DNA of 64,000 nt from a bacterium HR29 (lineage in GTDB: Bacteria > Chloroflexota > Dehalococcoidia > Tepidiformales > Tepidiformaceae): the NCBI GenBank assembly GCA_002898215.1, contig BEIF01000001.1, forward strand, positions 291,501 through 355,500, written 5' to 3'. The translations under genes were made by a program, and so were the position numbers. Below, one piece after another: positions 38,452-44,868 of the stretch; the stretch's first letter is position 1; each line of letters starts with the position of its first letter. The notes under the pieces are model-generated. The model made no database searches. It was not told where the DNA came from and worked only from the letters and a program-made list of their open reading frames with translations.

Positions 38452-39594
38452 CTACGGCTCTTCGTTCGTGAGGATGATGGTGGCCGAAGCGGCGAACATC
38501 CCCCCGACGCCGTGGCAGACGCTGATGCGGCAGTTCGGCACCTGAGCCGGCGCCGTTCCCCGCAGCTGGCGGACGCTCTCCTGGAGGGCGAACATCCCGT
38601 ACATCCCAGTATGGGTGTAGCTCAGCCCTCCGCCGTTCGTGTTCAGCGGCAGCTTCCCTCCTGGCCGCGTGTTCCCCTCGGCGATGAACGCCCCTGCCTC
38701 TCCCCGACCGACAAAGCCGAGGTCCTCCAGGCCGAAGATGGGCAGGTGCGCGAAGGCGTCGTAAATCATGAGGTGGTCGACGTCGTCATGGGTGATGCCG
38801 GCCTCTTCGAAGGCCTTCTTTCCGGAGACGCGGAACGCCTTCGAAGTGGTGAAATCCTCCATCTGGCTGATCATGGGGCTCTCGACGCTCTCCCCCGTGC
38901 CCAGGATGTACACCGGCTTGGTGGGGAAGTCCTTCGCCCGTTCGGCCGAGACGAGCACCAGCGCGCCCCCGCCGTCGGTCACCAGGCAGCATTCCAGCAG
39001 CCTGATGGGGTAGGCGATCATGCGGGAGTTGAGCACGTCCTCCACCGTGATGGGGTCCCGGAACATGGCCCGCGGATTCATCGACGCCCACTCCCGCTGG
39101 ACGACGGCCACCATCGCCAGCTGCTCCTCGGTGAGCCCGTACTCCTTCATGTACCGGAGCACGGGCAGGGTAAAGAGCGTCGGCGGGCCGAAGGGACCGT
39201 ATGGAGCCTCGAACTGGCCTTGGAGCGATTGCGGCGCGAAACCGAACCGCGCCCTGCCGATGCCCGATCGGCCGCTCTCCCCGTGGGTGATGAGCACGGT
39301 CGAGCAGAGGCCTTCGTTGATGGCGGCCGCGGCGTGGCGCACGTGCATCATGAAGGAGCAGCCGCCCACGGCCGTGCCGTCGACCCAGGTGGGCGTAATG
39401 CCGAGGTACCAGGCGACCTCGACCGGTGATGCGCCGGCGCAGGCCAGACCGTCGATATCCTTCGGTGTCAGGCCGCAATCCGCCAACGCGTTCAAGGCCG
39501 CGTCAGCGTGGAGCTGGATCTGCGACATGTGGGGGATGACGCCGAGCTCCGTCGTCTCCGCAGCACCGACGATCGCCACCGACTTCCGCTTCAT
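38452..39594 (-). CDS. Thiolase-fold protein (SCP-x/lipid-transfer type)
   Basis: A 380-residue thiolase-superfamily protein of the non-degradative SCP-x/Ltp2 branch. Recognisable segments: VAIVGAAETTELG at the N-terminus, VGGCSFMMHVRHAAAAI at the nucleophile position (a Cys is present), LPLNTNGGGLSYTHTGMYG with the active-site His, and CHGVGGMFAASATIIL at the C-terminus. It overlaps the upstream DUF35 gene by four bases, a pairing known from steroid side-chain aldolases (Ltp2-DUF35) and from acyl-CoA thiolases. It could be a retro-aldolase or a thiolase; the presence of the Cys does not settle this. Confidence 0.87.
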   Translation of the reverse strand: MKRKSVAIVGAAETTELGVIPHMSQIQLHADAALNALADCGLTPKDIDGLACAGASPVEVAWYLGITPTWVDGTAVGGCSFMMHVRHAAAAINEGLCSTVLITHGESGRSGIGRARFGFAPQSLQGQFEAPYGPFGPPTLFTLPVLRYMKEYGLTEEQLAMVAVVQREWASMNPRAMFRDPITVEDVLNSRMIAYPIRLLECCLVTDGGGALVLVSAERAKDFPTKPVYILGTGESVESPMISQMEDFTTSKAFRVSGKKAFEEAGITHDDVDHLMIYDAFAHLPIFGLEDLGFVGRGEAGAFIAEGNTRPGGKLPLNTNGGGLSYTHTGMYGMFALQESVRQLRGTAPAQVPNCRISVCHGVGGMFAASATIILTNEEP

Positions 39595-40016
39595 CGCGCA
39601 TCCACCGGCCGAAACTTCGGGAGTGAGATCTCATCCGTGATCGGCTCGAACGTCACCTCGAGCGGCATGTCGAGCTGGAGCGCCTCCGGCGTTTGGGGAC
39701 AGCCAACGATGTTCGTCATCATCCGCGGTCCTTCTTCGAGCTGCACCACCGCGATGGCGTAGGGGGCCTCCTGCTCGAAGCCGGGCGCCGGGCGGTGGTT
39801 GATGATGTAGCTGTAGAGCTTCGCCCGTCCCGAAGCCGTGAAGCTCTCGACGCTCCGGGCGGCGCACTTCGGGCAGTGCCCTCGCGGCGGGAAGAACACG
39901 TGCCCACAGACGGTGCACCGTTGGAGCCGCAGCTCGCCTCGCTTGCATCCCTCCCAGAAATCTCTGGTTTCGGGTGTCGGTTTCGGGATCGGCTTTCGGT
40001 ATTCGGTCAATTCCAC
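39591..40016 (-). CDS. DUF35 OB-fold protein with rubredoxin-like zinc ribbon
   Basis: A 141-residue partner protein for thiolase-like enzymes. An N-terminal helix ETRDFWEGCKRGELRLQRC leads into the zinc ribbon CTVCGHVFFPPRGHCPKC (two CxxC pairs), then an OB-fold acyl-CoA-binding domain ending SLPKFRPVDA. The stop overlaps the thiolase start (ATGA), implying a complex. GTG at 40016 is chosen because it gives the family N-terminus; TTG at 40010 with better Shine-Dalgarno spacing is possible. The longer upstream frame is unsupported. Confidence 0.88.
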   Translation of the reverse strand: MELTEYRKPIPKPTPETRDFWEGCKRGELRLQRCTVCGHVFFPPRGHCPKCAARSVESFTASGRAKLYSYIINHRPAPGFEQEAPYAIAVVQLEEGPRMMTNIVGCPQTPEALQLDMPLEVTFEPITDEISLPKFRPVDAR

Positions 40017-40118
40017 CCCTTCCTTCCCATGAGAGTCCGGTCCGGAACGCGGTACCCGGCTCGGCGCTCCCATATCTACCGTGAACGTCAAGGTTGGGCA
40101 AGGGACGGCTGGGTGTCC

Positions 40119-40685
40119 CTACGGTCGCGGGCCGGACGCCTGGAGATGCCAGCCGACGAACTCCTCCTCCGTCGGCACTTCCATCGCTCCCAGGAACTTC
40201 GCCGTCATGGCGTAGAACCCGCAGAGGAGGTTGATGCCCACGATGGCGGCCGGTGGGAAGTGCCGAGCCAGCTCGTCGTGCAGCGACTGCAGCGGGTGGT
40301 CCGTCTGGGCCATCGCGTCCACGTATGCCAGCAGCGCGCGTTCCGCCTCGCCGAAGAGCGGGCTTTCACGCCAGTGATGGAGCGCGAGGATCTTCTCGTC
40401 CGGGATTCCCGCCTCGCGTGCCAACCGCACGTGCTGGTGCCACTCGTACTTGCTCTGGTGGAGGATCGCAGTACGCAGGATGGCGAGCTCCCGGGTCGCG
40501 ACGTCGAGGCCGCAGTGGTTCCAGAGACCGTTCCCCAGGCGCAGGTAGGCCCGTAGGAGGTGCGGGTTGTTCCCCATGACCCGGAAGATGTTCGGTGGTT
40601 CGCCGCCGTCCCGGGCCACGGCATCCCACACGTACTGCAGCTCGGTGGGGATGTCCTCGCGTCGAACGAAGGGAAGGCGCGCCAT
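40119..40685 (-). CDS. Carboxymuconolactone decarboxylase/AhpD-fold protein
   Basis: A 188-residue all-helical CMD-family protein. The core LDVATRELAILRTAILHQSKYEWHQHVRLAREAG is the family signature, with EWHQH in the position where AhpD has its CxxC-H redox centre. No Cys pair is present, so a thiol peroxidase role is unlikely; these proteins often accompany aromatic or acyl catabolism with unknown activity. It begins with ATG at 40685 and lies 102 bases downstream of the DUF35 gene start, in the same direction. Confidence 0.87.
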   Translation of the reverse strand: MARLPFVRREDIPTELQYVWDAVARDGGEPPNIFRVMGNNPHLLRAYLRLGNGLWNHCGLDVATRELAILRTAILHQSKYEWHQHVRLAREAGIPDEKILALHHWRESPLFGEAERALLAYVDAMAQTDHPLQSLHDELARHFPPAAIVGINLLCGFYAMTAKFLGAMEVPTEEEFVGWHLQASGPRP

Positions 40686-40775: not shown

Positions 40776-41498
40776 TCATCGGCGCCGGGCTGCCTTCGGG
40801 GTCCCCTGCGGCTGGGCACGAGGCTCGGCCTGGCCGCCGTCGCGAACCCAGATCTTCTTGGCGACCTCCGTCCCCATCACGATGTCGCGGCCGTTCACCC
40901 GTGCCGTCACCGTCCCGCGATAAGGCGCGATCGAGGCGAGCGTGATCGTCTCTCCAGGGAGGATCCCCTCCTCGTAGAAGAACTTCAGCAGTTCCTCGTC
41001 CTCCTCGAAGACCCGTTCGATGGTCGCGCTCTCGCCCTCCTTCAGGTCGGCGAGCGTGGTTCGCGAGAGGTCGGCGTCCTCCCCGGCTCCTGGGATCGGA
41101 TAGCCGAAGGGACTCCGCGTGGGCCGATTGAGCGCCTCGTACAAGGCGGGCTCGGTAACGTCCGAAATCCCGTGCTCCAGGAGGTGCGCTTCCTCGTAGG
41201 CGCGCCACCACTCCACACCGAGCACTTGTGTCAGGAGACACTCGGCTAGCCTGTGGCGCCGGATCATCCGCTCGGCCCGGCGAAGCCCCTCGGAGGTGAG
41301 GTGGATGCGCTTCTTCGCGTCCTGGTAGACGAGGCCGTCGCGGATGAGGCGCTTCAGCATTCCCGCGACCGAAGGCGGCGTGACCCCGAGCCGGTCGGCG
41401 ATCCGCACGGCGATGACGTCCTGTCCTTCGTCGTGCGACATCCTGTAGATGGCCGTCAGGTAATCGTCGACCGCGGCGTTCTGAACTTGCTTCGGCAT
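40776..41498 (-). CDS. DtxR/MntR-family metal-dependent repressor
   Basis: Metal-responsive regulator of 240 residues. N-terminal winged helix with ADRLGVTPPSVAGMLKRLIRDGLV, a dimerisation/metal domain with MIRRHRLAECLLTQVLG and EEAHLLEHGISD (His/Glu ligands of the DtxR metal sites), and a C-terminal SH3-like FeoA domain (LKEGESATIERVFEEDEELL to GTEVAKKIWV). It should repress iron or manganese uptake genes when metal is plentiful; none is adjacent. Transcription appears leaderless: a TAGAAT box ends six bases before the ATG. A basic Gln/Pro tail ends the protein. Confidence 0.92.
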   Translation of the reverse strand: MPKQVQNAAVDDYLTAIYRMSHDEGQDVIAVRIADRLGVTPPSVAGMLKRLIRDGLVYQDAKKRIHLTSEGLRRAERMIRRHRLAECLLTQVLGVEWWRAYEEAHLLEHGISDVTEPALYEALNRPTRSPFGYPIPGAGEDADLSRTTLADLKEGESATIERVFEEDEELLKFFYEEGILPGETITLASIAPYRGTVTARVNGRDIVMGTEVAKKIWVRDGGQAEPRAQPQGTPKAARRR

Positions 41499-42575: not shown

Positions 42576-43625
42576 ATGGCCGTCAATCCCTCGACTGGGC
42601 AGGGTGAAGGGCTCGACCTTTCCTGGCTCGACCTGTACGACGACGCCGCCTCCGCCACCCCGAGCAAGAAGGGGATGACCCTCGCGGACATCAACCTCGG
42701 CCGGTACTCGGCCGAAGCCCGTGGCGCCGGCGACATGACCTTCCGCCTCCGCGGGGCGATTCCACGCCCCAACGCCCAGCGGTTCGGGCCGAACTACCAG
42801 TCGAAAGCGGACGTGTGGGCCGAGAACTGCCTCATGCTCTACGAGGAGGCGGTCCAACGACAGTGGTCCTCGGCCCGCGATATTCCCTGGGAGACGCTCG
42901 AACCGCTGCCCGATGACATCGAGCGGGCCATGTGCCAGCTCTGCACCATGCTCACGGAGGTCGAGTTCATCGCCGGCGACGTCCCCGGTCAGTGGCTCCC
43001 CTTCGTGAGCGCCCAGGATTACGAGGCCGGTCTCTTCCTCATGACCCAAATCATGGACGAGGCGCGCCACACCGACGTCTTCCGGAAGCGAGCCCTTGCC
43101 AACGGGGGCGGCCTCCTGGCCCAGGGTGCGGGGCTCGGCCTGCGAACGCTCATCGAGGCGCGGGACTTCACGGAGATGTCCGTCCTCATGCACATCCAGG
43201 CCGAAGGCTTCGTCCAGTCGATGTTCCGCATGGGCGAGCTGATCGGGAAGACGGAAGCCGACAAGCGGATCTTCCGCATGAGCGCACAGGATGAATCCCG
43301 GCATCTCGCCTTCGGCGTGATGCACCTGAAGTACGTCCTCGATACCGAGCCGGAGCGCCGCGAGGAGATCCACCACTACCTCGACAAGGCCGAGGGGGAT
43401 GCCGCCGGGGGCGGCTCGGGCGATGTCACCTTCCCGCCCGTCTTCGAAGCGCTCTGCATCCTCCTCGGAGGCGGCAAGGACAAGTTCGACGAGGGTGTGC
43501 AGAAGTTCCTCCTCCTTCGCAAGCGGCAGGTGAACGAGTACCTCCACCGCCTCGAGGTTGCCGGGCTCGGCGACCGCCGGCAGCGCGTGGGTCCGCTGCT
43601 CCGTCAGTTCGTCGAGGCTGCCTGA
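42576..43625 (+). CDS. Ferritin-like di-iron oxygenase/oxidase (R2-like)
   Basis: A 349-residue all-helical protein with a complete carboxylate-bridged di-iron site: E128 or E130 in LTEVEFIAG, E162-x-x-H165 in DEARHTDVF, E210 in HIQAEGFVQ and E240-x-x-H243 in DESRHLAFG. The 30-residue spacing between each Glu and the following ExxH is that of R2-like proteins. An O2-dependent oxidation is predicted, but no substrate is suggested by neighbours. No Tyr-radical or reductase partner is encoded nearby. ATG at 42576 follows GGGAG. It ends 13 bases before a paralogue that lacks most of these ligands. Confidence 0.85.
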   Translation: MAVNPSTGQGEGLDLSWLDLYDDAASATPSKKGMTLADINLGRYSAEARGAGDMTFRLRGAIPRPNAQRFGPNYQSKADVWAENCLMLYEEAVQRQWSSARDIPWETLEPLPDDIERAMCQLCTMLTEVEFIAGDVPGQWLPFVSAQDYEAGLFLMTQIMDEARHTDVFRKRALANGGGLLAQGAGLGLRTLIEARDFTEMSVLMHIQAEGFVQSMFRMGELIGKTEADKRIFRMSAQDESRHLAFGVMHLKYVLDTEPERREEIHHYLDKAEGDAAGGGSGDVTFPPVFEALCILLGGGKDKFDEGVQKFLLLRKRQVNEYLHRLEVAGLGDRRQRVGPLLRQFVEAA

Positions 43626-43638
43626 GGAGTCCGTCGCC

Positions 43639-44868
43639 ATGTCCGAAGCACCCTCCGCGCCCCGCACGGTCGAGGTCCCCCAGGAAGCGCGCGATCGCGC
43701 CCGTGAGCTCGGCTGGGAGGACGGGCTTATCGAGCTTGCCCTTCAGCAGGGACACACCCTCCAGGAGGTGTGGCAAGCGCTCCGCGCCGGGGTCACAGGC
43801 GAGCAGGCGAAGATGTACCTTGCCCGTGGCGCCCGGGTCGTCCGCCCCGACTTCTGGTGGATGCGGGTGCCGACCGAGTGGGGTATCCGCGTGCGCCCGA
43901 AAGACCCGGCCATGGGCCTGCAGCTCAGCGACCTCATGGTCGGCACCTACGGTGACGTCCCGGACGTGTGGACCAACCGCTCGGAGATCGCCCGCGGCTC
44001 CTGGCCGAACCCCGTCGTCGAGGACATGGGGTACACGATCTTCGAGAAGGCGATCGTTTGGGCCGATTGCGTCGTGCCCTTGTACGAGATCGCGATTCGG
44101 GACCGCTGGGCGGCCGCGACGGACCTTCCTTGGAGTACCCTCGAACCCTTACCCACCGACATCGAACGCGCCGTTTGCCAATTCCTCACCGAGCAGAGCG
44201 AGCGGGCCTACTTCGAGGCGACGATGTGGGCGGGCTGGCTCCCGGAGATCAGCTACGGCTTCCTCGAGCTGAAGCTGTTCCTTTCCACGGTGATCTTCGA
44301 CCTCGCCCGGCACTCCGAGGCCTTCCGGAAGCGCGCCCTTGCCAACGGCGGCGGCCTGGGCCTCCAGGCCCCTACCGACTACAACCGTATCGTGAAGGAG
44401 GCGCGGACGTTCCCCGAGCTCGCAGCGGTGCTCTTCGTGCAGGACAGCATGCTCCTCACCCTCTTCCGGCACGGTGAGCGCATCGCCCAGAACCAGCTCG
44501 AGCGTCAGCTCTACGCCCTCTGCGCTCGGGACCGCGAGCGCCTCGTGGAGTATCAGGTGGAGCGGCTGAAGCACTTCCTGTACAAGATGCCCGACCGGCG
44601 GGAGGAGCAGAACCTCTACTTCAGCAAGGCCGAGGGCCGCATCGCGAAGGAGTGGCGCGACCCCGCGGTTTGGGAACCGCTTGCCATCCTGCTCGGAGGC
44701 GGCACCGATCGCATCGAGGAGGGGCGGCGCATGCTGCTCGAGCTGCGGAAGGCCCAGGTCGACGACTACGTGGCCAACCTCCGCCGTGCCACCTTCGAGC
44801 GGAAGAGCCTGAACGGCCGCCTGGTGGCCATCTTCGAGGAGGCGACAGCGCCCACCGCTACCGCCTGA
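43639..44868 (+). CDS. Degenerate di-iron paralogue, putative non-catalytic partner subunit
   Basis: A 409-residue paralogue of the preceding protein; they share LPxDIERAxCQ, an RHxxxFRKRALANGGG block and similar C-termini. Aligned by eye, ligand E130 becomes A190, E162 becomes L222 (DLARH), E210 becomes D269 or S270, E240 becomes R299 and H243 becomes L302; only E188 and H225 remain. It should not hold a di-iron centre. An extra N-terminal helical domain of about 70 residues (ELGWEDGLIELALQQGHTLQ) precedes the core. It begins 13 bases after the first gene, so a heteromer like the alpha/beta subunits of bacterial multicomponent monooxygenases is inferred. Confidence 0.85.
   Translation: MSEAPSAPRTVEVPQEARDRARELGWEDGLIELALQQGHTLQEVWQALRAGVTGEQAKMYLARGARVVRPDFWWMRVPTEWGIRVRPKDPAMGLQLSDLMVGTYGDVPDVWTNRSEIARGSWPNPVVEDMGYTIFEKAIVWADCVVPLYEIAIRDRWAAATDLPWSTLEPLPTDIERAVCQFLTEQSERAYFEATMWAGWLPEISYGFLELKLFLSTVIFDLARHSEAFRKRALANGGGLGLQAPTDYNRIVKEARTFPELAAVLFVQDSMLLTLFRHGERIAQNQLERQLYALCARDRERLVEYQVERLKHFLYKMPDRREEQNLYFSKAEGRIAKEWRDPAVWEPLAILLGGGTDRIEEGRRMLLELRKAQVDDYVANLRRATFERKSLNGRLVAIFEEATAPTATA

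Follow-up and report, generated by a model that had tools for sequence, protein, structure and literature searches.

A putative di-metal oxygenase, its metal-less paralogue and an SCP2-fold companion in Dehalococcoidia

Introduction

A pair of adjacent genes in the window, the 64,000-nucleotide stretch of DNA analysed here, raises a question about the division of labour between related proteins. The first gene (A) encodes a ferritin-like di-metal protein, and the second (B) encodes a homologue in which the metal ligands are mostly replaced. What does an apparently catalytic protein do beside a sister that would not bind metals in the same way? The original prediction made from this DNA answered with a minimal catalytic/scaffold heteromer. 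Here we consider that answer in the light of the relatives, predicted structures and genomic surroundings of both genes, and of a third gene (C) that was not part of it.

Results

The features discussed are collected in Table 1. The gap between A and B is 13 bases; a GGAG motif abuts the stop codon of A and ends 9 nt 5' of the ATG of B. Such a junction is consistent with an operon and possibly with translational coupling. The two proteins align with 39% identity over 316 aa (E 7e-69), which bears out the claim that the gene lying 13 bases downstream is a homologue of the first. Among the members scanned, no convincing Pfam family was found for A or B, and some members give weak Ribonuc_red_sm matches. 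NCBIfam models of R2-like ligand-binding oxidases (R2lox) match A weakly (31.7 bits versus a cut-off of 194) and match B more weakly still.

Table 1. Features of the A-B locus and the single gene C of the same genome. Coordinates are window positions unless a contig is given.
Feature	Coordinates	Strand	Remarks
Thiolase-like, ChsH2-type OB-fold/zinc-ribbon and carboxymuconolactone decarboxylase family genes	38452-40685	-	Consecutive genes farther out than the DtxR gene
DtxR-family metal-dependent repressor with FeoA domain	40776..41498	-	Upstream of the pair, opposite strand
Gene A	42576..43625	+	Ferritin-like di-metal protein, 349 aa, ATG 42576 to TGA 43625
A/B junction	43623..43641	+	TGA-GGAG-9 nt-ATG; Shine-Dalgarno-like, directly 3' of the A stop; read from the sequence itself
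Gene B	43639..44868	+	Metal-less paralogue of A, 409 aa, ATG 43639 to TGA 44868
N-terminal helical module of B	43639..43839	+	Residues ~1-67; four helices in a close relative's model
Gene C of the window's genome	G000:C3:191235-191660 (L283:7221-7661)	-	Alone between unrelated genes; 47% identical to the query

A retains all six carboxylate and His ligands of a di-metal site (E130, E162, H165, E210, E240 and H243). The two E/ExxH sets originally read in this protein are thus present, and the six residues (EEHEEH) are invariant in 123 of 123 distinct A proteins. At the corresponding columns the B protein of the window has A190, L222, H225, D269, R299 and L302, so that five of the six are changed. 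The earlier list of replacements was right for A190, L222, D269, R299 and L302 and left out H225, which is retained at the H165 column; Asp269, at the E210 column, is a conservative change from Glu. The original prediction turned on whether such losses are shared across genomes or whether homologues of B mostly retain ExxH motifs. The pair co-occurs across genomes with the same losses, and none of 101 distinct B proteins keeps the ligand set. At the four carboxylate columns, 57 of these proteins have no Asp or Glu, 37 have one and 7 have two. Of the 101, 81 have Ala or Gly at the E130 column and 54 have Arg or Lys at the E240 column. Where Asp stands at the E210 column (43 proteins), Arg or Lys stands at the E240 column in all except one (42/43), a pairing that suggests that the metals have given way to a buried salt bridge. 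Ligand loss is a property of the whole B family, not of one protein.

In a close relative (L222), A and B lie in one frame with a single TAG between them; the proteins are 88% (A) and 69% (B) identical to those of the window. We modelled the read-through with AlphaFold as one linked A-B chain, using a 36-row alignment in which 13 rows were paired. The model has a mean pLDDT of 86.4 and a pTM of 0.86, with disorder at the join (residues 346-378). Since a clearly lower pTM would be expected if the two halves were not fixed relative to each other, a defined A-B arrangement is predicted. This confident model agrees with the heteromer proposed earlier and is consistent with a physical A-B complex, with an interface that could reflect a general dimer mode of the family. 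In searches of the PDB, the A half is most similar to VlmB (8wvr; Z 22.5, rmsd 2.6, 254 residues aligned, 19% identity) and to 6d9f (Z 22.2, 254 residues), followed by R2lox (Z ~20) and aldehyde-deformylating oxygenases (Z ~19-20). The A half fills the listing, the B half is absent among the PDB matches listed, and the fold of B is assigned from its homology to A. PDB profile matches that would make B a relative of a cytochrome b562 chimaera were rejected as helical noise.

The genome from which the window comes (2.34 Mb) has one A and one B. Of 331 confirmed relatives of A, the best 80 were examined; those with names belong to Chloroflexota, most under the label Dehalococcoidia or Chloroflexi and with Tepidiforma among them, and other phyla were covered by the same contig scan alone. 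An A-like match occurs in 117 of 393 sampled genomes of the class Dehalococcoidia, and 35 of 38 genomes of the window's family have a match to A or B. Presence of both genes is mixed in two distant families (f8 and f86). Plasmid records contain essentially no relatives, with one weak match in Xenorhabdus. The pair is often present in several copies per genome.

B follows on the same strand, at most 700 bases downstream, in 71 of the 107 distinct A genes with enough flanking sequence; about one third of A genes stand without an adjacent B. Genomes in which the two are unlinked usually have both (G270, G284, G432, G472, G508 and G512 are examples). Profile-confirmed B occurs in 29 of 38 genomes examined, and B fragments lie at contig ends in G503 and G434. 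Among close relatives the clear exception is G322 (86% complete, 270 contigs). The converse concern, that B might occur independently of A, was not borne out: an unlinked B usually has an A elsewhere in its genome. At one locus (L065; G441:C1, ~301900-302900) an intact B adjoins an A gene whose matches are spread over three separate frames, as if frameshifted; this could be real loss or a sequencing error.

The evolutionary distances of A and B are closely correlated across 39 linked pairs (r = 0.95, with at most 0.34 under permutation), in part through a shared species history. In genomes that have more than one pair, such as G210 and G218, cognate A and B types stay together. These patterns bear on a different reading, in which A forms a di-metal oxidase by itself, as a homodimer, with B as a transient regulator or assembly chaperone concerned with metal loading or stability, and with C partnering B in some other way. 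The solitary A genes would fit that arrangement, as would a locus (L111) where a ligand-intact relative of A sits beside C without B. However, nearly all A-bearing genomes examined encode B too, the divergence of A and B is matched even in multi-pair genomes, and the linked model is confident. We regard a self-sufficient A as unlikely, and a heteromer of A and B with metal in A only as likely.

A maximum-likelihood tree of 114 rows places 50 of 51 B proteins in one clade with support of 100/100; the sole B outside it (L022 of G122) is on a very long branch. Loss of metal by B following one ancient A/B duplication is the best explanation. For A, dN/dS ranges over 0.10-0.23, and for B over 0.21-0.41 (Nei-Gojobori, window genes versus four relatives), from which it follows that B is under purifying selection and is constrained less tightly than A. 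The added N-terminal helical domain noted earlier is present in this B, with four helices, and is not universal in the family. Specifically, the module is absent in L007 and L009, and is tandemly duplicated upstream of the B core in L005, L006, L126, L127 and L128.

Clustering of flanking ORFs identified C, a gene of ~145 aa, directly 3' of B in the distant lineages G270, G145, G122, G358 and G432. A profile search yielded 45 distinct matches to C. It is downstream of B in 27 of 74 distinct B loci flanked on both sides, and in 11 of the 14 cases where B has no neighbouring A. Solo-A loci rarely have it (2 of 35: one in an A-A-B-C array, and one where a divergent ligand-intact relative directly adjoins C), so C keeps company with B and not with A.

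Several loci depart from the usual layout. At L126:4819-9516, an A-A-B-C array has two genes of catalytic type, a single B and a single C. At L111:7365-9183 and at L089, the divergent ligand-intact relative of A is followed directly by C, with no B between; these are possibly survivals of the state before duplication, or else an independent branch. In G434 (L171:5970-8920, contig C68) two tandem A genes stand without B, and the B fragments of that genome adjoin C at contig ends (L286 and L287).

Sequence searches of C returned weak matches to SCP2; the Pfam SCP2 model matched 3 of 25 members, with a best E of 0.14, below the gathering score. The predicted structure of C (pLDDT 94, pTM 0.89) is most similar to SCP2 proteins, with Z 13.3 over 120 residues for Thermus 2cx7, Z 11.9 for 1wfr and lower scores for further SCP2 entries. 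Foldseek returned weak E-values, yet placed SCP2-type entries at high probability. On the strength of this model, C has an SCP2 fold. Binding of lipids and further hydrophobic compounds is established for SCP2 proteins, and C may bind such a ligand too.

Across the 393 genomes, 109 have both A and C, 8 have A only, 3 have C only and 273 have neither (phi 0.93, with both searches at fixed thresholds and counts that ignore kinship). C is thus in 112 genomes, and 109 of the 120 genomes with either gene have both. In the window's genome (Table 1) and in most of its family, C is unlinked to A-B. That separation, together with counts that take no account of kinship, would suit an explanation in which C lies outside the system, its co-occurrence being lineage history and its position after B incidental. 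This explanation is improbable given that C lies directly 3' of B in distant lineages (the five named above) and that so few genomes have A or C alone. SCP2-fold C probably belongs with A-B. The minimal two-protein heteromer of the original prediction therefore holds in part: the pairing of a catalytic with a metal-less protein passed the checks run, but C co-occurs, so that the system is probably more than a minimal pair. We think it somewhat probable that C is a carrier working with B.

The surroundings of the pair offer hints to its role. The DtxR-family repressor gene has matched homologues at 16 of 17 relatives' loci, with 68-74% identity among the matches listed, and its product may regulate A-B. 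In some relatives the thiolase and OB-fold genes stay close to the pair. Other lineages have SDR, CoA-transferase III, acyl-CoA dehydrogenase and LLM-type genes nearby, mostly named from the appearance of their sequences. Overall, the neighbourhood hints at metabolism of the acyl-CoA type and at metal control. No reductase or coupling/bridging subunit recurs beside the pair among the flanking ORF clusters listed. Large "conserved" ORF clusters that overlap A and B in other frames were rejected as shadow ORFs.

B has conserved features of its own. Y132, Y206, K212, Y305 and acidic residues at 116 and 338 are conserved in B and not in A, and the first three are kept in nearly all B members. Of the 101 B proteins, 58 have His at the H165 column and 52 have it at the H243 column. 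From these residues one could argue that B has a catalytic or binding activity of its own, with another cofactor or a mononuclear site on Y132, Y206, K212, Y305 and the retained His. We consider such an activity very unlikely. Comparison of residue conservation between B and A identified no B-specific conserved set of Asp, Glu or His able to substitute for the metal site, which also speaks against the possibility, raised earlier, that B might keep an equivalent site built from other residues. The retained His are not constant, and about half of B proteins have the charge-reversing Arg or Lys at the E240 column.

Metal-free partners are already known from other enzymes. In bacterial multicomponent monooxygenases (BMM) an iron-less beta subunit pairs with an iron-bearing alpha subunit, and there, as in PaaAC and A-B, a metal-bearing subunit is encoded together with a metal-less one of the same fold. 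In phenylacetyl-CoA epoxidase (PaaABCE) PaaC is described as structural, and all four non-cluster irons were assigned to the two PaaA (PMC4498308). PaaA-PaaC, a heterodimer in which a di-iron catalytic subunit is joined to a structural one of the same fold, is like the proposed A-B heteromer. However, PaaA and PaaC share 17% identity versus 39% for A and B, the Paa system has bridging (PaaB) and reductase (PaaE) subunits and no SCP2-like carrier, and PaaAC chains rank below R2lox and VlmB in the structure search with A.

R2lox has ligands of the E69, E102, H105, E167, E202, H205 type and a V72-Y162 crosslink (PMC6060897). A is like R2lox in fold, in the type of its six ligands and in its weak sequence signal, but the crosslinked pair has no counterpart in A. 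With offsets taken by sequence spacing, the V72 position (E69+3; A133 in A) is Ala in 123/123 and the Y162 position (E167-5; residue 205 in A) is Met, Leu or Val in 123/123. The literature checked describes no metal-less paralogue partner for R2lox. VlmB and 6d9f, the best structural matches of A, are also its best PDB profile match; to our knowledge neither the azoxy synthase VlmB nor the aldehyde-deformylating-type protein 6d9f has a metal-less partner. AibH1H2 is a two-subunit monooxygenase with a Mn/Fe site in one subunit (PMC10401708). It is like our proposal in placing such a site within one of two subunits, but AibH1 binds metal too. The fold of AibH1H2 is of the amidohydrolase type, unlike that of A-B.

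Yeast Rnr2 and Rnr4 are paralogues, both needed for viability, and Rnr4 is without residues needed for iron (PMC9431586). They are like A-B in being a paralogous pair with one metal-less member. Rnr2 uses a tyrosyl radical, whereas the radical-tyrosine position (His+4 in class Ia/Ib R2) is Phe in 123/123 A proteins, and a different role is expected. That the pair is a relative of the ribonucleotide reductase small subunit making deoxyribonucleotides as Rnr2-Rnr4 do is barely credible, for the common fold class, the metal-less sister and the weak Ribonuc_red_sm matches are set against that Phe, best structural matches to VlmB and R2lox instead of R2, several pairs per genome and a co-occurring C. 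Some R2 classes are without the radical Tyr.

A-B would work like PaaAC, Rnr2-Rnr4 and BMM but belongs to none of them, because its nearest folds are VlmB and R2lox, A and B are 39% identical and the pair has an SCP2-fold companion. The view that this family is not usually described as paired needs qualification. We found no literature description of the A-B family or of its carrier link, in a search with subscription journals mostly outside its coverage, and the Tepidiforma and SAR202 literature checked mentions no such protein; pairing of this kind is itself known, as in PaaA-PaaC and Rnr2-Rnr4. The A-B family and its link to a carrier appear undescribed.

Discussion

We propose that A and B form a heteromer of a di-metal oxygenase and a metal-free subunit, probably served by an SCP2-type carrier. 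As a whole this reading is, in our judgement, fairly probable; its heteromeric core is the best supported part, and the remainder is put forward conditionally. A would carry a di-metal site, either Fe/Fe or Mn/Fe, and activate O2. B, its metal lost, would be a structural and docking subunit for A. C would bring a hydrophobic, perhaps acyl-type, substrate to the A-B complex and would dock most likely on B. We infer the oxygenase chemistry, the carrier role, the class of substrate and the identity of the metals from these comparisons; for oxygenase-type chemistry on a hydrophobic substrate the balance tips slightly in favour. More tentatively, B could be a docking platform on which SCP2-type C hands a water-insoluble substrate to A, and one B-C might serve several A proteins where a genome has extra A genes. 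Since genomes with A-B almost always encode C, the pair and its almost constant companion have the look of a three-part oxidation system that appears not to have been described before.

The pair is found repeatedly in the class Dehalococcoidia although it is without Pfam coverage in the members scanned. If our reading is true, it would add a family to the few oxygenases known to have a metal-less sister subunit of their own, and would tie such an oxygenase to an SCP2-type carrier. Given that nearly all B proteins are of single origin (100/100), B would also be a clean case of a catalytic subunit turned structural. For uncultured Chloroflexota, the system would provide a testable route for the oxidation of hydrophobic organic matter.
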